From assembly GCA_016185625.1 (NCBI GenBank), contig JACPND010000011.1, forward strand, positions 1 to 37,113: 37,113 nt of DNA, in the 5' to 3' direction. The notes under the pieces were generated by a model. The model was given only the letters and a program-made list of their open reading frames with translations. It was not told the origin of the DNA and searched no databases. Position 1 is the first letter of the stretch; every line of letters starts with the position of its first letter. Origin of the DNA: Candidatus Woesearchaeota archaeon (GTDB lineage Archaea; Nanobdellota; Nanobdellia; Woesearchaeales; GW2011-AR9). This document shows positions 4,616 through 34,147 of this stretch, one piece after another. Made by a program: the position numbers and the translations under genes.

Positions 4616-5398
4616 ATGCCTGATTCGGAACCCTATCTTACCGCAGTAACCGAAGAACTGCGGCTACGTAAGTACTCGAAACAAACTGAAAAAGCCTATC
4701 TCTCCATCATTCAAAATTACCTTTCTTCCCAAAAAACACCGCGAGAGTTCCTGCTGCAATACACCGAACACAGCAACTCTACCATGCGAACAACCTATTT
4801 CGCCCTTAAATTCTTCCATGAGAAGATACTCAAGCAGAATTTTGAAGAACAATTGCCGCTCGCCAAGCGCTCCGGAAAACTCCCCATCGTCCTCAGCAGA
4901 GATGAAATCAATCAGATCTTTCACGTCACCATTAACCTCAAACACCGCCTGGTTCTTATGCTTTTATACTACAGCGGCATCCGGCTCCATGAAATAATCA
5001 ACCTCTCTTGGGAAGATTTTGACTTCACACGGAACACCATCCATCTTAAAGTCGCCAAAGGAAATAAAGAAAGGGTGGTATTTCTTCATGAAAAATTAAA
5101 GAATGTCATTCTCAGTTTTAATCTGGCTGATCATGGCTTGGTCTTTCGCTCCAATCGGAATACAAAATACAACCAGCGAACAATCCAGATGATCGTCCGC
5201 CACGCTGCACGGAAAGCGGGAATAACAAAAAGAGTGACGCCGCACATCTTTCGCCATTCTTTCGCTACGCACTTGCTGGAAGCCGGAGCAGATATTCGTC
5301 TGATTCAGACCTTGCTAGGCCACAAGAACCTGCAAACGACACAAATATATACTCATATCGCCAACCGGGATTTATCCAAAGTGGCCAACTTACTGTAA
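4616..5398 (+). CDS. Tyrosine recombinase, XerA/XerC/D-type
   Basis: Catalytic pattern R (YYSGIRLHEI), HxxR (HIFRHSFATHLLEAG), H (LLGHKNLQTTQIYTHI) with terminal Tyr; N-terminal SAM-like core-binding domain. Confidence 0.87.
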   Translation: MPDSEPYLTAVTEELRLRKYSKQTEKAYLSIIQNYLSSQKTPREFLLQYTEHSNSTMRTTYFALKFFHEKILKQNFEEQLPLAKRSGKLPIVLSRDEINQIFHVTINLKHRLVLMLLYYSGIRLHEIINLSWEDFDFTRNTIHLKVAKGNKERVVFLHEKLKNVILSFNLADHGLVFRSNRNTKYNQRTIQMIVRHAARKAGITKRVTPHIFRHSFATHLLEAGADIRLIQTLLGHKNLQTTQIYTHIANRDLSKVANLL

Positions 5399-11487: not shown

Positions 11488-13752
11488 ATGAAAAAGAAGG
11501 TGCAGAAGAGTTCTGGTACCAGAAGTAATAGTACGCAACGGTCTTGGATTGTCACGGGTGTTACTATTGTTCTTTTGCTGGCGTTAGGCCTGATGTTGTA
11601 TTCGCCGGCCCGCACGGCGCTCTTTGGAAAGGCAGTAGGTGCACCTCTTCAACTCTATACGACAGAGTATGCTGGGAATGTCCAAATGAAAGAAGGTGTG
11701 CCTCTTTTTTATTATTATGGCGAAGATAAGCCCCTATTTTTAGGCCAAAGTTCTTTTCAAGTGTTTAAAATTACGCTTGATTCTGGTTTTAAGCCAACAG
11801 TGGAGTATGTGTGGCGGTCGGGAAAGCAAATCCCCCAGAGTTTTGATGCCACGGCACCCTACTTTTGTACTTTTCCAAATGAGCCAAATCAGTACACTGG
11901 CGCTCAAATGCAGTTCGATTGTTCAGTGAATGACTGTGTTGGCGATGTAACTAAAGATAAAAGCTGTTTAAAATTTTCTGTTGTACCTGGACTTAAAAAT
12001 AGATTACGTGCGGAGGCCAGGTACTGGGATGCTGAAAAAGCAAATTTGCTGACTCCTTACCAAATCGCTCAGAAACCTGATTCCGTGCATTCTTTTGTTG
12101 AATTAAAGAGCAGTGAAAAACCCGAGGAGGTTCTAAAAAAGGGATTCCAAGATGCTCCCAATGCATACATCTGTAATCAGGGGCCATTTGCTGGAGGAGT
12201 CCTTAGAGATGTTTACAGCCTCGTTGAGAAAGGTAAAACTATTACTTTTGATTTGCTTTTCATTCCTCTCTTCAGGATTTATAAAGAACATGAATCCTCT
12301 AAAAGTGAACTAAAAGATTACGAATCAACTATCTGTACGGGAGCATCTAATAAAGCAGAGCAGGAAAAATGGTGTGGAGCCGAAACGAAGTATGCTATAA
12401 TCAGCATAGGAAATCCTTTTTTCGGACGAGTGGGCTCTGCCTTGTGTTTTCCGTTGTTTGCGGAAGTTGAAGAATATAAAACAGAGGAGAATCCCCCAGG
12501 TGGCGTCATCTCTTCTAAAACAGTGATTACTAAACAATTAGAAAAGAATATATGGGTTGAGTGTGATGCAAAAAATGATGGCACTCTGGCTAGCGGTGGG
12601 AATATGCCTCCTGTTCTACCCGTTGGAACAATAAGAGAGAATTGGGATAGTGCAATCATTTCCAAAGACTCTTCCCTAAAAGAACTAGATGAAGAGATGA
12701 ATAAAAAATTCGGAATTTCAGATGTCCTCCCTCAATCTAAAATTATCAATCATCTGCTCTGTGCCGTGCAACCGGCTGTCACCATCGCGTTCACAAAAGT
12801 TTCCATTCCTGAACACGAAGCTTGGTTTGTTTGTAATCCAAACAAGGGAAAACCTTTACTGGATCAGGGTTACCAGAGGACATCTGGTGAAAAGGTTACG
12901 GCAGGTGGAAAGACGTATATTTGTAACGAAAACGGCTGGGCTGTGGAGAAGGCAGTCCCTGCTGAAAAAGTATGTCCTGCTGGTCAGGTAGAAGTGACCA
13001 GTTTTATTTTACCTGAAGAAAAGATTGGCGGTGTGACTGATCGAGTAGGATGCTGTAAACCAGATCAATGCATTCGTGCGAATCTCCAGTGTGTGGATAA
13101 GGAGACAGCATTTGATGGAGTGCATCTATGTGGAAAAGACAATAATTTTGTCAAATGCGTGACGGAAACGAAAGAACAAGTAAGCGATGGAAAGAAGTTT
13201 ACCTGTGACGGGACAAAGTGGGTGCCAATCCCTTCTGAAACAGATTGTACGAATATGCAGGACGATGATGGTGACGGCTGGATAGATTGCGAAGATTCCG
13301 ACTGTTCAAATAAAGATTGTAAATCCGGCGCTGCGTGCACATATAATCCGGAACTGTTAAACAAAGGCACCCCGGAGAAGCAGAAAGAGCTGATGGAAAA
13401 TATAAAAAAGGGGATGGTTTTGTTTTCCTGTTCTTGTAAGGAGGGATATTCTGAGCAGCAGGGTACATGCCTTACTTCAAAAACAGCCGTTGATACTGAC
13501 GGTGACGGCATCGCCGATAAGGATGAGCCGACAGGATGCCAAGGGAAAGGCAAAAAAGATGCCGTGCAAAAAACAGGAGCGCAGGCAGGCTGTCCATTTG
13601 GCGATAAGAATGGGGATGGTTGCCTCTCTGCCGCCGAATACAATGATTTCAAGCAGGAATATAAAAAAGGCCTATTAAATGATGTTGTACCTACTAAGTA
13701 TAATGACATAAAGCAGGAATATAAAAATAACATTAATAATATAGCCTGTTGA
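11488..13752 (+). CDS. A1: N-terminally anchored Cys-rich surface protein with EF-hand/dockerin-like C-terminus
   Basis: Basic tail, TM, LFGKAVG motif; CTNMQDDDGDGWIDCEDSDC repeat; C-terminal GDKNGDGCLSAAEYNDFKQEYKK...PTKYNDIKQEYKNN. Confidence 0.65.
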   Translation: MKKKVQKSSGTRSNSTQRSWIVTGVTIVLLLALGLMLYSPARTALFGKAVGAPLQLYTTEYAGNVQMKEGVPLFYYYGEDKPLFLGQSSFQVFKITLDSGFKPTVEYVWRSGKQIPQSFDATAPYFCTFPNEPNQYTGAQMQFDCSVNDCVGDVTKDKSCLKFSVVPGLKNRLRAEARYWDAEKANLLTPYQIAQKPDSVHSFVELKSSEKPEEVLKKGFQDAPNAYICNQGPFAGGVLRDVYSLVEKGKTITFDLLFIPLFRIYKEHESSKSELKDYESTICTGASNKAEQEKWCGAETKYAIISIGNPFFGRVGSALCFPLFAEVEEYKTEENPPGGVISSKTVITKQLEKNIWVECDAKNDGTLASGGNMPPVLPVGTIRENWDSAIISKDSSLKELDEEMNKKFGISDVLPQSKIINHLLCAVQPAVTIAFTKVSIPEHEAWFVCNPNKGKPLLDQGYQRTSGEKVTAGGKTYICNENGWAVEKAVPAEKVCPAGQVEVTSFILPEEKIGGVTDRVGCCKPDQCIRANLQCVDKETAFDGVHLCGKDNNFVKCVTETKEQVSDGKKFTCDGTKWVPIPSETDCTNMQDDDGDGWIDCEDSDCSNKDCKSGAACTYNPELLNKGTPEKQKELMENIKKGMVLFSCSCKEGYSEQQGTCLTSKTAVDTDGDGIADKDEPTGCQGKGKKDAVQKTGAQAGCPFGDKNGDGCLSAAEYNDFKQEYKKGLLNDVVPTKYNDIKQEYKNNINNIAC

Positions 13753-13764
13753 AGGTGTGCAAAA

Positions 13765-16002
13765 ATGAAAAAAATAATAATCTCTGTGGCGATGGTCTTG
13801 TTGCTGACTCAGTTAGTTTTAGGCTGGGAAGCAAAAAGGGATATCTCTGGTAATGACATCACTATCACGATAGACCCTTCAGGGGGAACAGGTTACTTTC
13901 TTATTATTGAAACCGTGTCTGGAGCTACTGTCGATATATCTATTCCCCAAAACTGCGGGTTAGCAAACAATGTTTTGACGTGTGATTATGATTTATCTAC
14001 AACAGGGACAATTAAATATAAGACAACTGGTTCGGGAAGTGTTTCTGGAACTATCACTGGGGACTATCCCTCTCAAACTAAACAAATTAGTGGTGGTACT
14101 CAGATACCGTCAGCAGCGTCCATACCTGAAAATTGTGCCAAAACCGGCGATGAAGATGGCGACGGTAAAGCAGACGCCAAAGATTCCGACTGCAGAGGAA
14201 AAGAATGTGCATCAGGTAAAATAGGAGTGTGGACGTATTATCTCCCCGCCGACAAGTCTCTGTATGAGGCTAAGGCTCAGCCCAGTCGAACTGGCTGCTG
14301 CGTCGCGACTGAGTGTGTTCGTGCAGATGGAACATGCGTTGCGTATAAAAACATCTTTCAGACTTCTGTGACCTCACCTAATGACGTTTACTGTGACAAA
14401 GAGAATATTTTAAGAAGATGCGAAGAATCAACGCTCAATCAAATATCAGGGGACGGGCTGCTGACTTGTATGAAGGAAGGGACAAAGTTCGTATGGAAAA
14501 CAGCTGTTGAAGATTGTACCAACGCCAAGGATGATGATGGTGATACGTATGTTGATTGTTTGGATGGCGATTGTTCAGATAAAACCTGTAAAACAAATGC
14601 TGCCTGCAAGCTAAATCCAGAAGCTACTAAACTTGCAGATTTGCAAACTTGTCAATGTAATGAAGGATATGTTGACGACAAGGGGGTATGCAAAACTCCT
14701 GTTAGTATTTGTACGACCACCGATGCTGAAGCAACTACTAAAGTGGAAACCACCAGTACCACTAGTATTTGTGCACAACGATTACAAGAAAAAGGAGTTG
14801 ATTCTTCACTGATAAAAGGCAATCTTTGTATTTCAGTCTATAAAGGTGTAACCATTCTCCAGCCAACAGCCGATCACACTTTCCGATATGTTAATTCAAA
14901 AGCCGGTGGTATTACAGGTGCGTTTAAATCAAACTGTCTGGAGATCCTTACGGGAGAGACGAAGGATCTTCCAAAAGTGAAGCAGTGTATTGATTCTGGC
15001 CAGAACAAATTTTGGGGGTATGATTTAAGTTATTGCCCTCTGCTCCCGCCCGCAGACTTAAAAATTTCTGCCCCCTCAAGCGTACAAAAGGATGTTCCTT
15101 TTACCATTGATGTTACATTGAATTCAAGGGGGGAAAAAGTTCAGCAGATAGTCATATACCTCACGAGCGAACAAGGGAACATCCAATTCCAGAGTGCATC
15201 CCGGGAAGGTGAGGTCTGGTTCTCCAGTGTAACCATTCCCAGTAATAAAGCAACTACGTACAACGGTAAATCAGCTTGGTTTTTCAATACCGCTCTTCTG
15301 GCGGATGAAACGGTTTTTGAAAACAGCGCCACGGACAAGAAGATTCTTTCGGTAACAGCAGTAGCAACCGCAAATGACAATATCATCTTTGGAAAACAGA
15401 GTACGGATACGAGAGTAGTCAAAGGAGCAGGAGGTCAGCTCAAATTCACAGCTGCTCCATCTGCCGTGAGCGTAACAGAGCCACCCCCTGCCTTCCCTTC
15501 GTGCGTCGATTCGGATGCGCAAGATTATGATGTCAAGGGAACTACCGTCGTAACTGATACTGCGGGAAAATCTACTTCCTACTCTGATTATTGTTTTGGA
15601 GAACAGGTACATGAGTATATTTGTAGTGATAACAAACTATCAGAAGGGACTAGTCCTTGCTCAACCGGAAAAATTTGTAAAGATGGTGCCTGTGTCGTTA
15701 AAGAAGAGGCGCCTGGCTTAATTGTTGCCGTAACCACTGCTGCCCAGAAAGCCCTGCTGGAAACCATCCGCGACGAAGTAAAGAAGGATACTCCTAAATC
15801 GGTGAAGATAGTGGCCATTGCTCTCGCACTGAAAACCTATCTCGCTGCGCCCCCAGTGGTGTCCGGACAAGAATTCACCATAAGTGTATCAACAGATGAT
15901 GAAAAGGCTTTCCTAGACAATATCAAATCCGCGCTGGAGAAACCGAATCCACTTCAGCAAGTCTCAGGCCTAGCTAAAGTCCTGAAGGGGAAATTACAAT
16001 GA
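13765..16002 (+). CDS. A2: secreted Cys-rich protein with metal-binding repeats and a cohesin-like beta-sandwich
   Basis: Signal peptide MKKIIISVAMVLLLTQLVLGWEAKRDISGNDITITI; DDDGDTYVDCLDGDC motif; segment SAPSSVQKDVPFTIDVTLNSRGEKVQQIVIYLTSEQGNIQFQSASREG. Confidence 0.6.
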   Translation: MKKIIISVAMVLLLTQLVLGWEAKRDISGNDITITIDPSGGTGYFLIIETVSGATVDISIPQNCGLANNVLTCDYDLSTTGTIKYKTTGSGSVSGTITGDYPSQTKQISGGTQIPSAASIPENCAKTGDEDGDGKADAKDSDCRGKECASGKIGVWTYYLPADKSLYEAKAQPSRTGCCVATECVRADGTCVAYKNIFQTSVTSPNDVYCDKENILRRCEESTLNQISGDGLLTCMKEGTKFVWKTAVEDCTNAKDDDGDTYVDCLDGDCSDKTCKTNAACKLNPEATKLADLQTCQCNEGYVDDKGVCKTPVSICTTTDAEATTKVETTSTTSICAQRLQEKGVDSSLIKGNLCISVYKGVTILQPTADHTFRYVNSKAGGITGAFKSNCLEILTGETKDLPKVKQCIDSGQNKFWGYDLSYCPLLPPADLKISAPSSVQKDVPFTIDVTLNSRGEKVQQIVIYLTSEQGNIQFQSASREGEVWFSSVTIPSNKATTYNGKSAWFFNTALLADETVFENSATDKKILSVTAVATANDNIIFGKQSTDTRVVKGAGGQLKFTAAPSAVSVTEPPPAFPSCVDSDAQDYDVKGTTVVTDTAGKSTSYSDYCFGEQVHEYICSDNKLSEGTSPCSTGKICKDGACVVKEEAPGLIVAVTTAAQKALLETIRDEVKKDTPKSVKIVAIALALKTYLAAPPVVSGQEFTISVSTDDEKAFLDNIKSALEKPNPLQQVSGLAKVLKGKLQ

Positions 16003-17573
16003 AAAAGAAACAAAAGAAAGTTTCTGTAGCGGCAAAAAAATCGCACGCGAGTGCAGCTCGCAAGCCATTTGTCGTCGCAGTGGTTTCGATTATTGCCGTG
16101 GTTCTTTTAGTCGTCATTTTATTCCGGGTACAGCAATTGGCCGGAAAAGCGTTTTTTGTGGGTGAAGAAGGGACAGGCGGGTTTGAAGAACCGGCTCCCG
16201 CGACAGAAAATACGCCTTTCACTGCAGTCGTGAAGGCCAATATAGGGACAAAACAAAGCGTCGGAATTAAATTTGAGGTTGCGCTTCCGGAAGGATTGAC
16301 GTGCCAGAAGGTGGAAAGTTCGCTGCCCTGGACGGAGGAGAATGGAGTTGTTCTTACTACTGCTGCCTGTTCGACGGGAACTTGCACTGATCCCGGGGGT
16401 GTTTGTGAGCCGGATAAAGTTATTTTTGAATATGCAACATTGAATTATGAGCAGGCAAAAACGGGAACGTTTGAAGTCGCGAAAATTACGATGGTGTCTT
16501 CCAAAGCCGCGAGTTATAAGTTGAAGTTTACGTCTTTCGATAGTATTGATCTGGACTCGCAGACCGATGTTATTGGTGAAGGTATTGAAGCGGATATTGT
16601 GGTGCAGCTTCCGCTGCCGAAATGCGGTGATGGCAAGGTTGATGCCGGAGAGAACTGTCAGCTCTGTCCAGAGGATGTGAAATGTGCTGCTGGTCAAAGT
16701 TGTGTGAATGGCGCCTGTATAGCTACGGCGGCGTGTGGTAATGGTGTGAAAGATGTGGGAGAAGATTGTTCCACTTGTCTGAAAGATTTTTGTACTGCTG
16801 ATCAAACCTGCCTCAATAAGGAATGTGTGAAAGATGTGCCCTGTGCAAAGATAGGGCAAGTTGGCTGTACTAAAGATGGTACGAATCTCGTGTGCTATAA
16901 TACTCTTTGCCTAACCTCGACCTGTGCTACCGAATTTGGGAAATATGCAGCGGCCACGGGCGGCGCTGCGTGCACGGCAAATGCTCAGTGCAACGCGGGC
17001 GAAATTTGCTATGCTGGTAAAAAATGCATACCTAAACCGCTTTTAGATGCGACTCTCGCTGCTTGTAGTGGGATTGACGGATATTGCGACATTAAAAAGG
17101 GAACTTCTGGAAATCAGTGCGTTGAGAATGATGGCGGTTGTAATAGTGAAGACGACTGCGCCCCTGGCCTTTCCTGCTCCGGCACGAATCCGGCATACGA
17201 CCCCTCCGTCAAAGTCTGCAGCAAGATCAAGCCCGTCAAGATTGAACTCATGAAGCAAGGTGCAGCTGTTTCAACGGTTTCGGCCAGCAATACGTATAAT
17301 ATTAAAATCACCGTTACTCCGTCTGTGGATTTACCGGCTCACTTAATCATTTCCACAGTGAGTTATGGTGCTGAACAACGCTCACAATTATTCGAACGTA
17401 AACCGGTGCTGAAAGCCGGAACATCGGAAACCATTGAATTTGCGCACGCGCTGCCCGGGGATCTGAAACAAGACGTCGCCGTCAAAGCCTTCGTCTGGAA
17501 TAGCTGGCCGTCGGAATTTGTGACCTGGAGCAGCTTATTAGATGCCGCCGAGGTTAAATATGAAATTAAATAA
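15999..17573 (+). CDS. A3: N-terminally anchored cohesin-like and Cys-rich surface protein
   Basis: TM plus QLAGKAF; FTAVVKANIGTKQSVGIKFEVALPEGLTCQKV...GTFEVAKITMVSSKAASYKLKFTS; ATGA overlap with A2. Confidence 0.6.
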   Translation: MKKKQKKVSVAAKKSHASAARKPFVVAVVSIIAVVLLVVILFRVQQLAGKAFFVGEEGTGGFEEPAPATENTPFTAVVKANIGTKQSVGIKFEVALPEGLTCQKVESSLPWTEENGVVLTTAACSTGTCTDPGGVCEPDKVIFEYATLNYEQAKTGTFEVAKITMVSSKAASYKLKFTSFDSIDLDSQTDVIGEGIEADIVVQLPLPKCGDGKVDAGENCQLCPEDVKCAAGQSCVNGACIATAACGNGVKDVGEDCSTCLKDFCTADQTCLNKECVKDVPCAKIGQVGCTKDGTNLVCYNTLCLTSTCATEFGKYAAATGGAACTANAQCNAGEICYAGKKCIPKPLLDATLAACSGIDGYCDIKKGTSGNQCVENDGGCNSEDDCAPGLSCSGTNPAYDPSVKVCSKIKPVKIELMKQGAAVSTVSASNTYNIKITVTPSVDLPAHLIISTVSYGAEQRSQLFERKPVLKAGTSETIEFAHALPGDLKQDVAVKAFVWNSWPSEFVTWSSLLDAAEVKYEIK

Positions 17574-18367
17574 ATTATTGTTGGTATTAGTACTATCTCT
17601 GCCATTGGTACTTGGTGCTACCACTGTGGATACTGATAAAGATATTTATGCTCCCGGAGAAACAGCAATAATAAGCGGAGTGTGCAGCACCGCTAATCTC
17701 AACGTAGGATTACAAGTATTATTGGGAGCCAATGCCGTCTGGGTGGATGAAGCTAAATCAGATGCTACGAAAAAATATTCAAAGTCATTTTTACCTTCGC
17801 AAAAGGGGAAATATACGGCTTATGCAGCGTGTACAGGAGATGCAGCAGCCAATGCTGCTTTTTGCGTCGGAACGCAGGATGAATGTGCGCCTAAAATAGC
17901 GGAGAAAGAAGAGCCAAAACCTTCTTCGGGCAGCGGCGGCGGTAGTGGTGGCGGTTGTACGCCAGTTTATGTCTGTGGCGATTGGGGATTCTGCAATGCC
18001 AGCCTCCAGCAAAAACGCATCTGCACCGATCAAATAGCCTGTAAATCCAATAAAATAGAAGTTCAGTCCTGCCCGAAATGTCAGGAATCCTGGGTGTGTT
18101 CATTATGGTCAGATTGTACTGGTTCGCAGTCAAGAACCACCGAGCTATCAGCCTCCTTCGTATCAGCCACCGACATTTAAGCCGGAACTACAGCAGCCAG
18201 CTCCCGCGGAAGAAACCTTCTGGGATAAATATCAATGGCTGATCATCAGTGGAATTGTTCTGCTTCTGGCTATCGGCGGCGGAGTAGGATATTATTTGTG
18301 GAAAAAGAGGCAGGGCGGTGCGGGAGAAGCAGAAGCGCCTGTAGAAGAACAGCCGGCGGCTCCGTGA
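17560..18367 (+). pseudogene. A4: surface protein with Gly-rich linker, CxW modules and C-terminal TM, broken by a frameshift near 18134-18137
   Basis: Frame 1 MKLNKLLLVLVLSLPLVLG...SGSGGGSGGGCTPVYVCGDWGFCNASLQQKRIC...CSLWSDCTGSQSRT; then frame 2 EPPSYQPPSYQPPTFKPELQQPAPAEETFWDKYQWLIISGIVLLLAIGGGVGYYLWKKRQGG...AAP*. Intact paralog at 27325. Confidence 0.7.
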
Positions 18368-18388
18368 AAATAATAGTGGAAGAGCTTT

Positions 18389-19465
18389 CTAATTTCTTAC
18401 TGCTTTTAACATTATCGGGTCGCTGATAAGATAGCGTTCTGCCTGCTTTTCAATAAAACTGTAATCAGATAATTCTTTGAGGTATAAGCCAAGCTGGCTG
18501 TCAGCAACTTTAATCTTTTCTTTGAGAAAAGCATATTTTATCAAATCCCATTCGTTTTCTCCCCTGGCCAGAAACTTTAATAATTTAAGATATTTGCCCT
18601 TGGCCTGCCGGGGACTCAGAAACACATCTAATTCTCTTTTAACTAAAACTTTCCCTTCTTCTTTTACTCGCTCTAAAGATTTTTCGTGTGATTGGCCTTT
18701 CTGTCTCAGCCACCCATAATAGGTAGTCCAGCCAATAATTCCATCCAGCTGGCTAACTACTTCTTTAATTTCCTCAAACGAGATCTGTTTTCCTAGTTGT
18801 TTGAAACCTTCTTCCAGAAATCTTTTGGTTTCTTCCTCTTTTAGCCGGTTTAATTCTACCTCCAGGCAAGCCCGGCCATACAAAGGAGAATCATAATCTC
18901 TCCTGCCCATGAATTTGTCCAGCAGTCCTATCTCTGACCCGGTCAGCAGGAATTTGAGCTGCCCGTAATTGTCAAAAGCACTGGCAACAAAATAATCAAA
19001 TTTAATCGCTTTGAGCAGTTGTATTTCATCAAAAGCTAATACTAAGGTCTGGTTCTTCTTTTTAAGCTGTTGGTTAAGATTCTGAAAGAATAGATGGACG
19101 TTTTCTTCTTTTGAAAAGAAAAAGTCCAAGGTGAGTTCTTTATAAGATATTCCCCCTCCGGAAATTTTTGAGATAACCTTCTCCCAGAAGGAGGGTTCTA
19201 CTTTCTGTTTGATTTGTTCAATGAGGAAAGGGAAGAATTCTTTTCGCTCAAAGTAAGGGCTTTCGCGAACATCTATCTTTACCGAATCTGCTTTCAATTC
19301 ATTTAAGGCTACATTTAAAAGGGAGGTTTTGCCGGTTCTCCGCAAACCTTTGATTATTATAAGGCGAGTGGAATCGTCCAGTAAATATTCACTTAAATTG
19401 TTAAGGGCATATTCTCCTCCAAAGAGGTTCTTCCGATCAGACTTTGGTTTAATGTCAAAGTACAT
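18389..19465 (-). CDS. Archaeal AAA ATPase (PF01637-type)
   Basis: IIKGLRRTGKTSLLNVALNEL (Walker A), TLVLAFDEIQLL (Walker B), FLLTGSEIGLL sensor, C-terminal winged-helix-like region. Confidence 0.85.
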   Translation of the reverse strand: MYFDIKPKSDRKNLFGGEYALNNLSEYLLDDSTRLIIIKGLRRTGKTSLLNVALNELKADSVKIDVRESPYFERKEFFPFLIEQIKQKVEPSFWEKVISKISGGGISYKELTLDFFFSKEENVHLFFQNLNQQLKKKNQTLVLAFDEIQLLKAIKFDYFVASAFDNYGQLKFLLTGSEIGLLDKFMGRRDYDSPLYGRACLEVELNRLKEEETKRFLEEGFKQLGKQISFEEIKEVVSQLDGIIGWTTYYGWLRQKGQSHEKSLERVKEEGKVLVKRELDVFLSPRQAKGKYLKLLKFLARGENEWDLIKYAFLKEKIKVADSQLGLYLKELSDYSFIEKQAERYLISDPIMLKAVRN

Positions 19466-19504
19466 GGCAACAGAGCGTAAATGGCTGTTCTTTATAAATT
19501 TTAC

Positions 19505-19567
19505 TATTAGTAGCTACTATCTTGGTATTAGTAGCTATTACCTTGATATTAGTAGTTACAACCTACC
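19505..19567. repeat. Three tandem 21-bp repeats upstream of the ATPase TATA box
   Basis: TATTAGTAGCTACTATCTTGG / TATTAGTAGCTATTACCTTGA / TATTAGTAGTTACAACCTACC; first unit contains palindrome TAGTAGCTACTA (19508-19519). Confidence 0.75.
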
Positions 19568-19723
19568 TATAGTTACTCCTACTAGAGATGCCAGGTATAC
19601 TGAAATATTACCGTCTATTCGCCTGTGCGGGTTGACTGGGAATTGCAGCAGAATGAAGCGTTCTTATCCCCCATCATTACAAAAGTGCGGAACAGGATCG
19701 TCTGACCGGCACTATCCATTTTC

Positions 19724-19860
19724 TGAGTGATGTGCCCATGAGTGCAGTGAGGGAGAAGTCATAATGCTGTCCGGAGGTTGGATTAGCACTATAAACGCAG
19801 CAAGATGCTGTGAAATCACTACGATTAATCCACCCGAACTGCGGCACGGCACATCACTCA
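19724..19860. repeat. Nested foldback element E3 (137 nt) followed by T6
   Basis: TGAGTGATGTGCC (19724-19736)/GGCACATCACTCA (19848-19860); TGGATTA (19779-19785)/TAATCCA (19826-19832); GCAGCA(AGA)TGCTGT at about 19797-19811. Confidence 0.65.
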
Positions 19861-19889
19861 TTTTTTGGATCGTGCCGTCTGACCGGCAA

Positions 19890-19915
19890 CTATATAAATG
19901 ATAAGTAATTACTTA
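19890..19915 (+). promoter_or_regulatory. TATA box CTATATAAATG with adjacent palindrome TAAGTAATTACTTA
   Basis: TATA at 19890-19900; perfect 14-bp palindrome at 19902-19915 between TATA and the expected TSS; ATG at 19938. Confidence 0.5.
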
Positions 19916-19937
19916 GCTTAAAAAAGGTGTCTGTTAG

Positions 19938-22145
19938 ATGGCGAAAAATAAGATGAAGAAGGCTGTTTCTAAGCCAAAGGGCTCTTCGGATAAGAGAATC
20001 TCTTCTCCTGAGAAGGCTGCTTCCCTGTCTTCTCAAAGTAAAAAAATCCTGTTTATTGCCGGCATTTCTGTCGCCATCATTGTTGTGGCGATACTTTTGC
20101 TTAAAGTGCAGAAAGGAGTGACGGCTGGGAAAGCCGTAGCGGTTACTTCTACGTTTAAAGTTGGCCTACAAGGTGGTTTTTTCCAAGTCACTGCAATTCA
20201 GGATGATCCACGTCTTCCTTCCGGAACGTATACCCTGTCTACGAATGTCCAGCTTGAGAATGGAATACCAAAAGCCGGCGACACTATTTTTCTGAAAGAT
20301 CAGAATGGAAATACGCTTTCTCAAATTCCCTTTGTCTTCAGTGAAAAAATTAAAGCAAAGTCTGAAAAGACCTATGTTTTTCCGCATCCGGAAGGAGGAG
20401 AATATTTGCGGATAACCGTACAGGATTTTCAAGCCTATGATGCAGCTCAATATCAACTAGGGGGGGATTATGGTGTTTTCAGCGGGAAAAAGGTATTGGT
20501 TATAGAACAGGCTCCACCACCTGCCGGTCCTTCTTGTCTTGACCTTACATTAATGACTGCTTATTCTTCTGCCCCTGTAACTGTCGTCCAACAGGAAAGG
20601 AAAGGCGTCTGTGAGAGTGTGGGGTGTACCTTTTCCGTGGGAGCTGAGGCTGACTTTGGTGATGATGGCTGTTTAGGTGCTGCTCCTTCTCTCTGTCCGG
20701 ATTTATCCAAGTACTTAACTGGTGGCAGTGCGGAACGGAAAGCGTTATGTGAAAGCGTACCCGAATGTGCGTTCCAGTCGCCCAATTGCGTACAGAAAGT
20801 GGCCGCTCTATCTTCGCCTGTTGTTCCGTCTTCACCACAAAGCTTAGGTTCTTGTTCTACGCAGCTGGAAGAAGTTACTATAAACATACCGGACTTAAAA
20901 CCCATACCCCATCGCTGTGAAAATCGCGGCCAAGGCCTACAATGGCTGAGAAAAAGATACCAGCCTTGTAAGACTGATGAGCAATGTGTTCCTGATGCGG
21001 TTTGTTCGTCAAATCCTGTTTTCATAGATGCTTGTCTTCCTTCTGAGGGCAGTTCTTGTGAGGGCGGACCATGTGCTGGCGGATTATTATGCGATCAAAC
21101 ATCTAGTATCTGTAAGAATCCACTTACTCCAGAAGCAGTGAAACCTACTGGTCCGACCTGTCTGGCTGTAAATCTGCTGCCCTACCAGACGACAAATAAA
21201 CTCGCCCAGTATCTCTCGCAAAAAGCACGGAAAGAAACCTGTGAAAGTGTGGGCTGTACGTTTCAGGGAATGCAGGCAGAGGGAATTTCATTGACAGGTT
21301 TGACGTCAACACAAATACTGGAGGCGCTGGCTAACGTGGAATTTGATGTTAATGATGATGCCTGTATTGGTCAGGCTCCCACAGTTTGCCCGGATGTTTC
21401 CAAGTATTACTTCAAAACCACGGAAGCAGAAGTAGCCCGCCAAAATCTTTGTAAAACTGTTTCCGGCTGTACCTATCTCAACGGCAAATGCGGAAAGTCT
21501 GAAATCTGCACGAATCTCGCTGATGACGATGGTGATGGTCTTACCGATTGTAAAGATTCGGATTGTAAAGGCAGTTTTGGGCCGAATGAGGAGACATGTG
21601 GACCGGAGATAGACTTTTACTGCAGGGACCTGGGGGACAACGATGGTGATGGCCTGACAGATTGTAAGGATCCGGATTGTAATACGAAACCTGGTCAACT
21701 CGGTCCTCTTAACTCTAAAGGGATTAGTAGTGTTTGCCTAGCAATAGAATCTTCTTACTGTGCAGATTCGTATGACAACGATGCGGACGGCAGTATGGAC
21801 TGTGCAGATAGCGATTGCGCAGCAGCCTGTACGGAAGTTTGCGATGGCAAGGACAACAATGCAAATGGCCAAGTGGATGATGGTGCTTTATGTTCCCTCT
21901 GCCCTAATTTTGGTGAAAAAACAAATACAATGAACAATGGCTGCCGGGTCGGCGATTTAGGCGGAACAGGTTGTGTGAGAGAGGCAGATTTGAATACACT
22001 CAACAATGTTTTTCTCATGAATTTTGGCAAATGCGGTCTGGGGCTGAAAGAAGGGGACGTCACGGGAGATGGCTGCGTCAATGATATAGATTTAAATAGT
22101 CTTAATAATTTATTCCTTAAGAACTATCAGGAATGTAATCCTTAA
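19938..22145 (+). CDS. N-terminally anchored surface protein with C-terminal type I dockerin-like pair
   Basis: TM plus VTAGKAVAV; DNDGDGLTDCKDPDC repeats; C-terminal GDLGGTGCVREADLNTLNNVFLMNFGKC and GDVTGDGCVNDIDLNSLNNLFLKNYQEC. Confidence 0.72.
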   Translation: MAKNKMKKAVSKPKGSSDKRISSPEKAASLSSQSKKILFIAGISVAIIVVAILLLKVQKGVTAGKAVAVTSTFKVGLQGGFFQVTAIQDDPRLPSGTYTLSTNVQLENGIPKAGDTIFLKDQNGNTLSQIPFVFSEKIKAKSEKTYVFPHPEGGEYLRITVQDFQAYDAAQYQLGGDYGVFSGKKVLVIEQAPPPAGPSCLDLTLMTAYSSAPVTVVQQERKGVCESVGCTFSVGAEADFGDDGCLGAAPSLCPDLSKYLTGGSAERKALCESVPECAFQSPNCVQKVAALSSPVVPSSPQSLGSCSTQLEEVTINIPDLKPIPHRCENRGQGLQWLRKRYQPCKTDEQCVPDAVCSSNPVFIDACLPSEGSSCEGGPCAGGLLCDQTSSICKNPLTPEAVKPTGPTCLAVNLLPYQTTNKLAQYLSQKARKETCESVGCTFQGMQAEGISLTGLTSTQILEALANVEFDVNDDACIGQAPTVCPDVSKYYFKTTEAEVARQNLCKTVSGCTYLNGKCGKSEICTNLADDDGDGLTDCKDSDCKGSFGPNEETCGPEIDFYCRDLGDNDGDGLTDCKDPDCNTKPGQLGPLNSKGISSVCLAIESSYCADSYDNDADGSMDCADSDCAAACTEVCDGKDNNANGQVDDGALCSLCPNFGEKTNTMNNGCRVGDLGGTGCVREADLNTLNNVFLMNFGKCGLGLKEGDVTGDGCVNDIDLNSLNNLFLKNYQECNP
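21693..21895 (+). repeat. Near-identical 203-bp direct repeat, copy 1 (partner 23031-23233)
   Basis: By-eye alignment shows one mismatch (GGCAGT/GGAAGT) over the 203 bp at constant 1338-bp offset. Confidence 0.85.
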
Positions 22146-22169
22146 CTACAAAGGAGAAAAGAGGTAAGA

Positions 22170-24965
22170 ATGAATAATAAGCTTACTAAGGTTCGTACAG
22201 AAGGGAAATCATTATCTTCAGGCCAGCGCTCTTCCACTTCCGGGCGCAGGCCACTGATTATCGGTTTTATTACCTTTGGGCTGGTGTTGCTTCTGGTGTT
22301 ATTTTTATTCGTGGGCAAGGGCAAGTTCGTGGGAAAAGCAATTGAGATAACGGCTCCCACGCCAATTCTTACGGAAGGTGGGGTCGGTTTTGATATTCTG
22401 ACAGCGACAATCGCTCCTACAGATACGCAAATTATATTAACACTAAAAGCTAATTTAGGGAGCCAGGCTTCTGGAAATATTGATGTCTATGTCGTATATG
22501 ATCCTACACTCACTGTCAGCGAAGGGGCAGTCGTTGATGTATTTGGTAAAAACTGGGATTCGGGAAAACAACTCTGGAAAACAGAAATTAGTCCAGGCCA
22601 GCTTCACTATACCCGTAAGTATTTTATTTCTGGCGAGCCAATTACGGGAAATGTCGATGTGGCGAAAATTACGTTTACCAGAGCGGACACCACGACGAAA
22701 CAGTTTAAGGTGTATGTGAAAGATAACTCTGTGATTTACAACGCCGGATCTAACAATATTATCACTAACATTGTAACGAGCGTGAATAATCCGACAACGA
22801 TTACGGTCGTGGAAAAAGCACCGGCTGCTCCGGCAGAGATATGCACTGATGTTCAAGATAACGATGGCGATGGTAAAATAGATTGTGCTGACAGTGATTG
22901 TAAAGGCAGTTTTGGGCCGAACGACGAGACGTGCGGACCTGAAACCGACGACTATTCGTGTAGGGACCTAGGGGACAACGATGGCGATGGCCTTACCGAT
23001 TGTAAGGATCCGGATTGTAATACGAAACTTGGTCAACTCGGTCCTCTTAACTCTAAAGGGATTAGTAGTGTTTGCCTAGCAATAGAATCTTCTTACTGTG
23101 CAGATTCGTATGACAACGATGCGGACGGAAGTATGGACTGTGCAGATAGCGATTGCGCAGCAGCCTGTACGGAAGTTTGCGATGGCAAGGACAACAATGC
23201 AAATGGCCAAGTGGATGATGGTGCTTTATGTTCGGCAGGTGAGAATTGTGTAAGTGGTGCTTGTGCGAAGGGCTGGGCGAAAGATTGTAATGACCAGGAT
23301 GCTAAAATCCATGTAGCTGCGCCCGATGGGCCTTGCGACGGAAAGGATAATAACTGTGATGGCCAGATTGATGAAAACCCTCTCTGCAGCACTGGCTACA
23401 ATTGTGTGGGGGGGAAGTGTACTCCTGCTCCCAAAACTTGTATTGAAACCGATGACAGCGGGAAGGACTATTACACCAAAGGAATCGTGGACATAACGAC
23501 CGATACCTATCCTGCCAATGGCGACCAGTGCAAGGCGGAGAATACTGGATACTACTCTAAATCGGGAGATCCCGGACCATACTTGTTGGAATATTCCTGT
23601 TCCACAGAGTATGCTTCACAGTACAGCTGGGAAATTAAGAAATGTGCCGACTTGGGAGCTGGCTTGGAATGCCAAAAGGGAGCGTGTGTACTGAAAACCT
23701 GTCCGACAGGATTAGCCGATTGTGATAAAGTCGCGAGTAACGGCTGTGAGATAGATATTAATTCAAATGTAAACTATTGTGGTGGCTGTACAAAGCTTCC
23801 TTGTTCCACTTCTCAGGAGTGTGTTCAGGGTGTCTGTAAACTGAAGATTCAGCCGGAAATATGCACAGATTCATACGATAACGATGGTGATGGTTTGGCC
23901 GATTGTAAGGATTCCGACTGTACTACGAAAACTGGCCCTCCTAATCCTTCAGGAGTTAGCGGTTCTTGCCAATTAAAAGAAACTTCCTGTGCAGATTTGT
24001 ATGATAACAATGCTGACGGTTTAGCTGATTGCAAGGATACTGATTGTGTGGGCAAAGCCGGACCTGCTGGAGCGACGTGCCAACCGCCTCAGGAGACGGA
24101 GTGTGCTAATAAAATAGATGACAACAAAGACGGAAAGATTGACTGTGCCGATGAAGATTGCCAGGGGAAACTTGGCCCAGCCGGTAAAAAATGTGAAGCC
24201 ACAGAAACACTATGTGCGGATGGCGCTGATAATGACGGCGATACTCTCACCGATTGCGTTGACGCCAATTGTAAAGTGCAGGCGGTTTGCGGCGGAAAAG
24301 AGAGTGCTTGTGCAGATAAGATAGATAACGATAAAGATCAACAAATAGATTGTGCTGATGCTGACTGCAGTTATTACCATGTTTGCGGCGGTACGGAAAC
24401 TCTCTGTAACGACGTAATTGATAATGATAATGATGGGAAAAAAGATTGCTTTGACAGCGATTGTGTTTCTTCCCCAGCTTGCCTCAAAGAAGACTGTACG
24501 GATGCTAAAGATAACGATGCTGATGGCTTAATAGATTGTTTCGATAACGTTGATTGTGCCGGAAAACCCGGTCCTCAAGGGAAATATACTTGTGAAAACA
24601 CTGAGACAACCTGTGCAGATTCATATGACAACGATGGCGATGGAAATGCAGACTGTGCTGACTCAGATTGCAATAATAAGCCCGGTAAACCCGGTTCTTC
24701 CAGTGTGCTTTGCAATTATCCCAAGGAATTGGTTTGTAATGATGAATTTGATAATGATGCTGGCGAGGGTGTAGATTGCGCGGATACTCTTGATTGTGCC
24801 AGTGCAGTGAATTGTAAGGTGGTGACGGTACAGGGCGATAGTGATGGTAATAGTTGCTTGAGTTCTGCAGAATATACACTCTTCAAAGCAAAATACAAGA
24901 AGAATAATGATAACATACAGAATACAATGTCATCAAGCGATTATACTGTTTATAAAGGCGAGTAG
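22170..24965 (+). CDS. B1: N-terminally anchored protein with cohesin-like region, about 14 CxDxxDNDxDG repeats and truncated dockerin-like C-terminus
   Basis: TM plus KFVGKAIE; TLKANLGSQASGNIDVYVVYDPTLTVSEGAVV...NVDVAKITFTRADTTTKQFKVYV; repeated CADSYDNDGDGxxDCxDSDC; GDSDGNSCLSSAEYTLFKAKYKKN. Confidence 0.72.
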   Translation: MNNKLTKVRTEGKSLSSGQRSSTSGRRPLIIGFITFGLVLLLVLFLFVGKGKFVGKAIEITAPTPILTEGGVGFDILTATIAPTDTQIILTLKANLGSQASGNIDVYVVYDPTLTVSEGAVVDVFGKNWDSGKQLWKTEISPGQLHYTRKYFISGEPITGNVDVAKITFTRADTTTKQFKVYVKDNSVIYNAGSNNIITNIVTSVNNPTTITVVEKAPAAPAEICTDVQDNDGDGKIDCADSDCKGSFGPNDETCGPETDDYSCRDLGDNDGDGLTDCKDPDCNTKLGQLGPLNSKGISSVCLAIESSYCADSYDNDADGSMDCADSDCAAACTEVCDGKDNNANGQVDDGALCSAGENCVSGACAKGWAKDCNDQDAKIHVAAPDGPCDGKDNNCDGQIDENPLCSTGYNCVGGKCTPAPKTCIETDDSGKDYYTKGIVDITTDTYPANGDQCKAENTGYYSKSGDPGPYLLEYSCSTEYASQYSWEIKKCADLGAGLECQKGACVLKTCPTGLADCDKVASNGCEIDINSNVNYCGGCTKLPCSTSQECVQGVCKLKIQPEICTDSYDNDGDGLADCKDSDCTTKTGPPNPSGVSGSCQLKETSCADLYDNNADGLADCKDTDCVGKAGPAGATCQPPQETECANKIDDNKDGKIDCADEDCQGKLGPAGKKCEATETLCADGADNDGDTLTDCVDANCKVQAVCGGKESACADKIDNDKDQQIDCADADCSYYHVCGGTETLCNDVIDNDNDGKKDCFDSDCVSSPACLKEDCTDAKDNDADGLIDCFDNVDCAGKPGPQGKYTCENTETTCADSYDNDGDGNADCADSDCNNKPGKPGSSSVLCNYPKELVCNDEFDNDAGEGVDCADTLDCASAVNCKVVTVQGDSDGNSCLSSAEYTLFKAKYKKNNDNIQNTMSSSDYTVYKGE
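23031..23233 (+). repeat. Near-identical 203-bp direct repeat, copy 2 (partner 21693-21895)
   Basis: See copy 1. Confidence 0.85.
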
Positions 24966-25950
24966 AAAAATAACCGGAAACGATGTTACGCTAACGGTCA
25001 CACCAGGTGATGGTTTTGATGTGTTTACCATAACTGAAACCATTTCGGGAGTATCAATACCAGACAAATCTTGGGGAACTGCTCAGTGTGGTCTTTCTGG
25101 AAGCAAGCTCACTTGTGATTATGAAGGCACAGTTCAAACTACTATTTCATATAAAACTGCAGGAGCAGGTTCTCTCAACGGGAAAATAGATGGTGTAAAT
25201 TCCAATACTTATGCGGCGCAAACAAAAGATATAACCGGTGATCAAGCAGTAGCCGCCGCCCAGCCCTGCACCGAAGCAGATTATGTCCTTGGTGCTTTTG
25301 GCTCCTGTAGCGTAGAATGCGGAACCGGAACACAAACCAGAACCGTAACCAAAAAAGTTGGTTCAACTTGTACGGGAGGAGTAACTCCTCCAACGAGTCA
25401 ATCTTGCACAACGCCAACCTGTCCAGCAGATAAACCAGACTGTGTTGCCAACCAATGTCAGGCGGAAGCTCCGGTGGAGTGTAACAATGCTGCAATTAAC
25501 CCTCCTGACTGTAATGAGTGTCCAACGGATAAGCCTAACTTTATCAATAATAAATGCCGCCCAGATCCAGAATGTACGATAGGTCAGCTCACTGCTTCGT
25601 GTGCCTGTAAAGCGCCATTGGTAGATGTGGCAGGGATATGTAAAGAGACGCAATCCTGCACCCCGGGCACCCTCATCTGTGCTGATGAAAAAGCTTACCA
25701 AGAATGCAATGCTGAAGGAACAGGTTATGGCGCATTTAACTCTTGCTCATCAGGTCAGAAGTGTGAAGGAGCAGGTCAATGCGTGCCGATTCCTCCCGAC
25801 CCCAAAGCCGAATTACTCCAGAAAATTACGGAAATTGTTAATGATAATACCAACTATAATACTGAAGGCAAATTAACTATCCAGAAAAAAATAAACTTTT
25901 TGGGGAAGCTCGCGAAGGCATTAAAAGAGTTCTTTGCTCAAGTAAAGTAG
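24907..25950 (+). CDS. B2: paralog of A2 lacking a signal peptide; contains a TSP1-like repeat
   Basis: SRKITGNDVTLTVTPGDGFDVFTITETISGVSI aligns with A2 KRDISGNDITITIDPSGGTGYFLIIETVSGATVDISI; GAFGSCSVECGTGTQTRTVTKK...SQSCTTPTC. First real homology begins at about 24958. Confidence 0.55.
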   Translation: MITYRIQCHQAIILFIKASRKITGNDVTLTVTPGDGFDVFTITETISGVSIPDKSWGTAQCGLSGSKLTCDYEGTVQTTISYKTAGAGSLNGKIDGVNSNTYAAQTKDITGDQAVAAAQPCTEADYVLGAFGSCSVECGTGTQTRTVTKKVGSTCTGGVTPPTSQSCTTPTCPADKPDCVANQCQAEAPVECNNAAINPPDCNECPTDKPNFINNKCRPDPECTIGQLTASCACKAPLVDVAGICKETQSCTPGTLICADEKAYQECNAEGTGYGAFNSCSSGQKCEGAGQCVPIPPDPKAELLQKITEIVNDNTNYNTEGKLTIQKKINFLGKLAKALKEFFAQVK

Positions 25951-25960
25951 TAGAGGCCAC

Positions 25961-27325
25961 ATGAGAAAAAAACATCTTCCTCCGCCGCAAAAACATCTGA
26001 CCCGGGGACAACTGGAACCAGCACCCGCTCCTAAGAAACAAAAGACAGTTATTATTGCGGCCATCAGTATTGCCGTTTTGGTTATTCTCGTGCTGTTCCT
26101 TTTCGTAGGAAAGCAATTCGTAGGGAAAGCGTACACTGTTCCGGGCGGAGATAGTGTTGATATGCAGTATAATGAGCAGGCCGGTACCGTTGATTTGAGA
26201 GTAGCGCTTATAGATAAGACCATGAATGCCGTCTATCTTGAGCTTTCGGCAAAGGATTTTGATGTGTGTACCCTATATGCCAGTCAAAAGTTTGCAGTTT
26301 GGGATCAATTCTATGAAACCAGTTGTGAAAATGAAAAATTAATATTAGGTGATGCCACGTTAAACGACGACCAATACAAACCTGAATTCACGCTGAAATT
26401 TCCTGCCGCCGGACTGTCGGACACCACAGAATTTACCGTAATTCTCAATGTCTATGATGGAGCAACAAATGAGGATATTTTTCCCGAGACGGCGACATTT
26501 ACCATTGAAAAAGTGAAAGCGCCGACAGTCGTGGAATCCTGCTCTGACGATCCCGACGACGCAAAGAATTATGGTGTTAAAGGAATAGTTGAATATACAC
26601 CGGATGGAGTTAAGGCTGTCGAGGATTTTGAAGATAGTTGTACTGAGAACATGCTCACTGAAAATTATTGTGAGGGCACAGCGAAAAAATCAGAGGAGAT
26701 AGATTGTCTTACTTTCTTCAAGAATTGTGCAGACGGTGCCTGTAAATCCATCCCCTGTACTATCACTACAGATTGTCCGTCAGGAGCAGTGTGTGAAAAT
26801 AGCGTCTGCGTCAAAGAAGCGGTGAAGGAAAAAATTTGTAATGACAATCTGGATGACGACGGTGATGGCTTTGCCGACTGTTTGGATTTAGCAGACTGTG
26901 CTGAGCATCTGGACTGTCTGACTCCTACTGAACTTGCCTGTGACGACGGATACGACAATGATGGTGATACAGTGAAAGATTGTGAGGATACCGACTGTGC
27001 GACCAATATTGCCTGTAAAAAACCACTTGCGGAATTTGTTGTCAAAGCAGAAGAAGCAGATAAGCTCCACACCAAGATCACTGCCGGGGAGGATATAAAC
27101 AAGGTCTTCTGGATTTTCACGACGGTCAAAGATAAAGACGGCACTATCCTTATTTTCAACAAGGAATTAGTTTCGTCCATGAAAAAAGATGAAATCTACA
27201 CGTCCACCATCACCTACAAGAATCCGGAAAAGATCGCCAAGAAAGCGGTTGTGGTTTATGATACGCCTGATCCGAGCAAATGGACAGTCTATCTAGACCA
27301 GAAATTTGAACAAACATATGGATAA
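25961..27325 (+). CDS. B3: N-terminally anchored cohesin-like/metal-repeat surface protein
   Basis: TM plus QFVGKAYTVPGG; beta-sandwich region; CNDNLDDDGDGFADCLDLADC and CDDGYDNDGDTVKDCEDTDC. Confidence 0.62.
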   Translation: MRKKHLPPPQKHLTRGQLEPAPAPKKQKTVIIAAISIAVLVILVLFLFVGKQFVGKAYTVPGGDSVDMQYNEQAGTVDLRVALIDKTMNAVYLELSAKDFDVCTLYASQKFAVWDQFYETSCENEKLILGDATLNDDQYKPEFTLKFPAAGLSDTTEFTVILNVYDGATNEDIFPETATFTIEKVKAPTVVESCSDDPDDAKNYGVKGIVEYTPDGVKAVEDFEDSCTENMLTENYCEGTAKKSEEIDCLTFFKNCADGACKSIPCTITTDCPSGAVCENSVCVKEAVKEKICNDNLDDDGDGFADCLDLADCAEHLDCLTPTELACDDGYDNDGDTVKDCEDTDCATNIACKKPLAEFVVKAEEADKLHTKITAGEDINKVFWIFTTVKDKDGTILIFNKELVSSMKKDEIYTSTITYKNPEKIAKKAVVVYDTPDPSKWTVYLDQKFEQTYG

Positions 27326-28746: not shown

Positions 28747-28797
28747 TTCACTGAGTAGGAAGGGAGTTATTAAAAAGATTTCCTAAAATTGTAGGTA

Positions 28798-28915
28798 TTA
28801 AGTCTGCCTGCTGACCGTTAGCTTCGTGCTTTTTTTGTCTCCAAGAAAGCACTCTCTAATTCTCATTAACGAATGTAATTCTTAGCTAACTTCTTGGCCT
28901 CGCAGGCAGACTTAA
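28798..28915. repeat. Nested foldback/structured RNA candidate E4
   Basis: TTAAGTCTGCCTGC (28798-28811)/GCAGGCAGACTTAA (28902-28915); GTTAGCT (28817-28823)/AGCTAAC (28884-28890); GTGCTTT (28826-28832)/AAAGCAC (28846-28852). Confidence 0.7.
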
Positions 28916-28964
28916 CTTAATACGCACCTAAAGTTTTATATAAAGCAGCCTTTTTCAGGAAACC

Positions 28965-29153
28965 ATGTCAGAGCAACGCACTCAGGAGATTAAAGATAGG
29001 CTGTTCCAGTTAGACCGCAAGATTCGGCCGTTGGAATGGGACGCCACGCGCAATCAGATCAATGACTTCAAGCGGCAGGACTTACAGCGATTAAAAGATG
29101 AGCATAAAATACTGACAGATGAATTACTGGGATTGCAGCAACAACCTTTATAA
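28965..29153 (+). CDS. Small helical/coiled-coil protein
   Basis: 62-aa ORF MSEQRTQEIKDRLFQLDRKIRPLEWD... following TATA TTTTATATAAAG. Confidence 0.5.
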   Translation: MSEQRTQEIKDRLFQLDRKIRPLEWDATRNQINDFKRQDLQRLKDEHKILTDELLGLQQQPL

Positions 29154-29168
29154 ATAAATCCGTGAAAC
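29144..29168 (+). promoter_or_regulatory. rpS6e promoter ACCTTTATAAATAAATCCGTGAAAC
   Basis: BRE/TATA-like; 23 of 25 bp identical to the 16S rRNA upstream promoter at 36444-36468. Confidence 0.6.
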
Positions 29169-29315
29169 TATACTAAAAATCCCTGATTCTCGAACAGAAA
29201 TCATGGATTTTGGTATATACTAAATTGCGTAGAATGTTCGAGACTTCTATGGCAATTTACTATACATTGTAGCTGAGACCGCTTCGGCGTGTACCGACAG
29301 GTTCTTAAGTCTCGG
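29169..29315 (+). promoter_or_regulatory. Structured 5' leader of rpS6e with potential kissing loops
   Basis: Hairpin 1 (29169-29217), hairpin 2 (29221-29259), 3' domain (29273-29315) with CGC-UUCG-GCG; loops CUCGAACA (29189-29196) and UGUUCGAG (29235-29242) are fully complementary. Confidence 0.65.
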
Positions 29316-29334
29316 AATCAAAGGGAGGGAAACT

Positions 29335-29730
29335 ATGGTTGAAATGAAATTAGTGCTTTCCACATCAGATGGAAAGAGTCATCAACGGGAAATCAAAAGC
29401 CCGGAAGCAGATAATCTGCTGAAACAGAAAATCGGCGATAAGATTGCCGGGGACGAATTGGGCTATGCCGGATACGAGTTTCTTATCACTGGCGGATCGG
29501 ATAAATCAGGATTTCCCATGCGGAAAGGCATTCAGGCACCACGCAAGCGAATTCTGATTGGCAAGAGTGTGGGCTTTAATGGCTTGGACAGAAAGGGTAA
29601 AAAGCAGCCCGGATTAGTGAAGCGGCGTACTGTTTGCGGTGAACACATCACCAAGATTATTCATCAGGTGAATCTAAAAGTCCTTAAAGAAGGATCGGAA
29701 AAGCTCGTCAGTGAAGCGAAGAAAGAGTAA
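29335..29730 (+). CDS. rps6e: 30S ribosomal protein S6e
   Basis: KLVLSTSDGKSHQREIKSPEADNLLKQKIGDKIAGDELGYAGYEFLITGGSDKSGFPMRKGIQAPRKRILIGKSVGF...RRTVCGEHI. Confidence 0.95.
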   Translation: MVEMKLVLSTSDGKSHQREIKSPEADNLLKQKIGDKIAGDELGYAGYEFLITGGSDKSGFPMRKGIQAPRKRILIGKSVGFNGLDRKGKKQPGLVKRRTVCGEHITKIIHQVNLKVLKEGSEKLVSEAKKE

Positions 29731-33867: not shown

Positions 33868-34121
33868 ATTAAGTCTGCTTGGTACAAGAGGGGGATAGTT
33901 TTCCCCTCTGTACAGAAAATCAGTCATCTCTGATTTTCTTGTACCTGAGCGAGCAAGAGCATTGCGAGCTCTTGCATGCACCCGCCAAGAGGTTAGCTGA
34001 GAACATCTTTCGTTAATGGAATTGATTACTGCTTTCTTTACGATAAAAAGCCTTTTTAGAGGAATGTCAACCCATGAAAGCACGAAGCTAACGGCCAGCA
34101 GGCAGACTTAAACTTAATACG
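33868..34121. repeat. Structured RNA/foldback candidate E5, inverted homolog of E4 with an extra hairpin domain
   Basis: Reverse complement shares TTAAGTCTGCCTGCTGrCCGTTAGCTTCGTGCTTT and ATTAACGAA...TTCTyAGCTAACyTCTTGGC with 28798-28915; extra GGTACAAG...CTTGTACC, GAAAATCAG/CTGATTTTC and GCAAGAGC/GCTCTTGC stems. Confidence 0.7.
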
Positions 34122-34147
34122 TACTTCTTTGCGGATATTGGTTAGTA

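Follow-up and report, generated by a model that had tools for sequence, protein, structure and literature searches.

A candidate autoregulatory leader RNA of rps6e in Woesearchaeales-type archaea and a dispersed double palindrome inserted beside it

The window analyzed here, a 37,113-nucleotide stretch of DNA from a Candidatus Woesearchaeota archaeon, carries the gene for ribosomal protein eS6 together with its promoter and a structured leader (Table 1). A preliminary description had named the gene rps6e, placed a TATA box ahead of the leader, and taken the whole leader for a candidate RNA switch. The gene and the TATA box (about 29147-29154) are as described, as are the coordinates of loop 1 (CTCGAACAGA, 29189-29198), loop 2 (TGTTCGAGAC, 29235-29244), and the segments CGAGACTT (29239-29246) and AAGTCTCG (29307-29314). 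The flagged stretch also folds better than its shuffles (-50.6 versus -37.2 +/- 3.8 kcal/mol, z -3.5), with hairpins 1 and 2 both present in the minimum free energy and centroid folds. The stretch is nevertheless two different things, a mobile palindrome insert and a conserved leader RNA: the part of the description that recognized a structured, r-leader-like RNA applies to 29272-29315, whereas the two hairpins at its center belong to the insert. Elsewhere in the window, positions 28790-28935 hold a second, unrelated dispersed repeat with 14-bp inverted ends (TTAAGTCTGCCTGC/GCAGGCAGACTTAA) around about 95 nt (fold z -5.55), of which more copies or parts lie in the same genome (including 34077-34124 of the window) and in some relatives. 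Read by eye, the long ORFs clustered in 11488-27325 have recurring motifs that resemble DNDGDGLTDCxDSDC as well as N-terminal membrane-like segments, and they probably encode surface proteins; the ORF at 4616-5398 resembles a tyrosine recombinase/integrase.

Table 1. Features of the rps6e locus, in coordinates of the window
Feature	Position	Strand	Evidence
rps6e promoter TATA box, TTTATAAA	29147-29154	+	Sequence; overlaps the upstream ORF's stop codon
Inserted, dispersed double palindrome, bounded by TA/TATA	29169-29264	.	Second copy in the genome, order-wide relatives, R2 matches
Palindromic unit 1 (hairpin 1), loop CUCGAACAGA	29169-29217	+	R2, 67.0 bits
Palindromic unit 2 (hairpin 2), opposite orientation, + strand loop UGUUCGAGAC	29216-29264	-	R2, 49.9 bits, minus strand
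Conserved rps6e leader RNA, three-way junction, ~44 nt	29272-29315	+	R1, 51.0 bits; covariation; rps6e-adjacent matches
P1 5' strand CUGAGAC, partner 29309-29315	29273-29279	+	Cells paired: 99.4% in 25 leaders, 100% in 25 more outside the family
P2 hairpin CGC-UUCG-GCG	29280-29289	+	Double-sided changes at all four P2 pairs
P3 hairpin, loop GACA in the window (relatives often UGAUAA-like)	29291-29304	+	Double-sided changes at all five P3 pairs
P1 3' strand GUCUCGG, adjoining the ribosome-binding region	29309-29315	+	SD-like purine block directly after it in 43 of 50 leaders
Shine-Dalgarno-like GGGAGGG	29323-29329	+	Sequence; ATG 5 nt further on
rps6e, ribosomal protein eS6 (131 aa)	29335-29730	+	PF01092, E 2.7e-27; eS6 chains of archaeal ribosomes

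Most of the leader motifs, when folded singly, form the same three-way junction. In an alignment of 25 leaders that was not fitted to the structure, 91.5% of cells are paired (76.1 +/- 1.3 in shuffled alignments), 69 cells carry double changes (21 +/- 4 shuffled), and the covariation score is 0.512 compared with 0.218 (0/500); pairing falls sharply if partners are slid by one column, and RNAalifold independently recovers 15 of the 16 pairs. A further 25 leaders, from outside the window's family and unused in the model, have 94.1% of cells paired (72.8% shuffled) and 79 double changes (20 shuffled; 0/500), in an alignment that was fitted to the R1 model and is thus biased towards it. P2 is paired in only about 81% of cells. 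Covariation in the rps6e upstream regions of relatives was the check that the preliminary description had proposed, and the covarying, rps6e-specific RNA that it identifies is 29272-29315; the UUCG-containing domain that had been treated as a mere competing strand exists and is in fact the conserved part. The SD-like block usually begins directly after the P1 3' strand (Table 1), with the AUG usually 9-20 nt past P1; in the window, the GGGAGGG starts 7 nt after that strand.

On DNA alone, the R1 covariance model matches 68 of 356 genomes at one place per genome, a figure for which the best candidates per genome were scored and which weak extra copies may escape. rps6e lies directly downstream of every one of the 50 matches examined by tblastn, half of which (25) come from families other than the window's. 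The leader was not found by R1 in most other families of the order (356 genomes), and a search of 335 genomes of the phylum gave, outside the order, no clear match and one marginal one (G373, E 0.009, the E-values being rough because of a short calibration). Across the genomes compared, the rps6e leader appears lineage-specific. Neither the leader nor the insert has an acceptable match in Rfam 15 at gathering or relaxed thresholds, the best score being that of TEG147 (22.7, cut-off 56.1). Archaeal cis-regulatory RNAs are few, 'a handful' according to Eckert & Weinberg 2020 (PMC7247131), where archaeal r-leaders are given for S15, eL15, and L4 and neither S6e nor Woesearchaeota is mentioned among the 20 motifs; an S6e leader was likewise not found in the literature searched, which leaves most subscription papers outside its coverage. 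Like those r-leaders, the window's leader is a compact, covarying RNA that is associated with a single r-protein gene, probably within its 5' UTR, and is restricted to a lineage, and it has both the covarying structure and the consistent position upstream of an r-protein gene by which r-leaders are judged; unlike them, it is equaled by no Rfam 15 family and is not among the motifs of that study. The best reading is that it is a new archaeal r-leader. A sequence in the window's 16S, CUGAGACA, is a possible target of mimicry by the leader; R1 has no match in the part of the 16S that bears it, and no rRNA mimicry by the leader was established.

The double palindrome has a different distribution. 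It consists of two inverted units, about 94 bp in all, with the architecture TATAC-arm-loop YCGAAC-arm-GTATA. The CTGAG...CTYGG motif of the leader occurs in 32 rps6e upstream regions of relatives, and the window's hairpins were seen in none of these 32. The TATA box lies 30-38 nt ahead of the leader motif in 28 of the 30 relatives in which both features were recognized. The palindrome has been inserted into the rps6e promoter and separates the TATA box from the conserved leader: the spacing of 125 nt in the window falls to about 31, as in relatives, once 94 bp (29171-29264, leaving one TA) are removed. The net insertion would be these ~94 bp if one TA is the target, a boundary that is drawn from the spacing and the paralogues, the exact empty site not being among the genomes compared. 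Other insert-like hairpin sequences lie within or just past the rps6e leader of two relatives (L014 in G021 and L026 in G020).

Copies of the element also occur far from rps6e. A second copy in the window's own genome (G000:C12:4786-4879) is 92% identical over both hairpins, with no identity downstream, and sits between genes for topoisomerase VI A and an ion-channel-like protein, both on the opposite strand (gene names from reading the sequences). A search of 362 genomes of the order with the insert core gave strong matches in many relatives, to unit 1, unit 2, or both. Aligned units have common TATAC(T)AAA/TTTGGTATA ends and the YCGAAC loop, and their stems differ yet covary (score 0.353 versus 0.125 shuffled, 0/500). 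An R2 covariance model of the unit matches 20 of the 39 genomes of the window's family, with 6 matches in the window's genome, 24 in G030, and 78 in G013. Each of the 21 elements read in G013 joins two units in opposite orientation, and nearly all of these elements are identical to one another over 93 bp; their flanks are unrelated, the common sequence stops at TATA on both sides, and 19 of the 21 lie outside ORFs of at least 80 codons (25 bp overlap allowed). Such near-identical elements in unrelated flanks are a signature of recent mobility. Bulged units escaped a strict, ungapped search for palindromes. A fold-based scan succeeded, although its reversed-sequence control was uninformative because palindromes survive reversal. 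Some G013 copies lie, like the window copy, shortly 3' of TATA-like boxes (L181, L183); elsewhere in that genome, several different TATA-bounded hairpins are joined end to end in arrays (L200, L197, L198, L028), and one composite appears to lie within a unit, a stretch of about 20 bp of that unit being present on both sides.

This distribution bears on the model of the preliminary description, in which rps6e is regulated by a switch built from the kissing loops of the two hairpins, in competition with AAGUCUCG. The hairpins are stable, their loops in the window have a 9-nt complement to each other, and 8 nt of the insert are complementary to the P1 3' strand. Insert and leader have a complement of that length in 4.2% of shuffles, however, and the competing pairing CGAGACUU/AAGUCUCG, complementary on paper, has an ensemble probability of only about 0.001. 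The loop match is lost in the paralogue of the same genome, where it is down to 5 nt, and across elements a permutation test (p 0.09) shows no significant advantage in complementarity for loops of one pair over loops of different pairs; the complementarity in the window arises because two inverted units have a common conserved loop motif. The absence of conserved loops in relatives, which the preliminary description itself had named as evidence against its model, is what we find in the rps6e leaders of relatives, which are without the hairpins, and the element recurs in its own genome beside unrelated genes. The kissing-loop switch is very improbable and already largely refuted; by sequence comparison, the kissing hairpins are interpreted as one copy of a dispersed mobile DNA repeat and not as an S6e switch.

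The anatomy of the repeat is similar to that of known systems. REP/BIME dimers (PMC3733652) are also short imperfect palindromes, clustered and often arranged as opposite-orientation heterodimers with different stems, but they carry a GTAG/CGTC tag where the window element has TATAC/GTATA ends and a YCGAAC loop, and Y1_Tnp (PF01797, RAYT-type) was not found in G013, the genome richest in the repeat, despite its 78 matches; PF01797 is present in 10 of 24 genomes with no clear correlation with the repeat. Miniature elements such as the Correia element (MITEs; PMC10969869) are likewise small, non-coding, and multicopy, with terminal inverted repeats and often a position near the upstream ends of genes, but the window element is only about 94 bp, consists of two hairpins, and has a TA duplication that is putative. 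An IS630/Tc1-type MITE is also at odds with G013, in which no IS630 DDE_3 transposase (PF13358) was found; the window's genome has one PF13358 match, at a contig end. With the transposase tests failed, we file the palindromes as neither REP/BIME nor MITE. What might have been a transposon flanked by two single units in G013 proved to be ordinary chromosomal genes.

We consider it probable (roughly 0.7) that the leader is an autoregulatory r-protein leader for S6e and that a mobile double palindrome has been inserted 5' of it in this genome. S6e is most likely the ligand, as in autogenous r-leaders, because the motif accompanies rps6e in every case examined, and control is probably translational. 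Surplus S6e would bind the junction, stabilizing P1 next to the ribosome-binding site; the stabilized P1 would hinder ribosome access, so that less S6e would be made. The structure and position of the leader would suit any cis-regulatory RNA, be it a riboswitch or a site bound by some factor besides S6e (a small ligand, another r-protein, or an RNA-binding regulator), but the strict association with rps6e in 50 examined matches is what autogenous control would lead one to expect, and we regard a different factor as unlikely. More doubtful still is a constitutive 5' structure that acts without a ligand as an mRNA stabilizer or translation enhancer: the motif does lie near the expected 5' end in relatives, given the TATA spacing, and adjoins the SD, but the GCUGAG and CU-GG strands are invariant and the junction is conserved across leaders, which suggests specific recognition. 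The transcript from the promoter TATA box probably starts inside the inserted element, which would leave two extra hairpins at the 5' end of the rps6e mRNA; these look incidental and not part of a switch. P1 is predicted to form still, with a pairing probability in thermodynamic folding of about 0.57 with the insert and about 0.66 without.

The wider proposal, on which we are evenly divided, is that an r-leader with eS6 as its ligand operates across Woesearchaeales-type archaea, which would be RNA-level autoregulation in DPANN, alongside a mobile double-hairpin family that keeps its ends and loop while its stems vary and that is most abundant in a genome with no match to the two transposase families tested. 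Because the leader is small, has good support, and goes with one gene only, purified protein would allow S6e autoregulation to be tested directly. As a problem in mobile DNA, the palindrome family is tractable and puzzling in view of that lack of a match to either transposase family, and its insertion here is a natural experiment in how a mobile hairpin is tolerated beside an r-protein leader.
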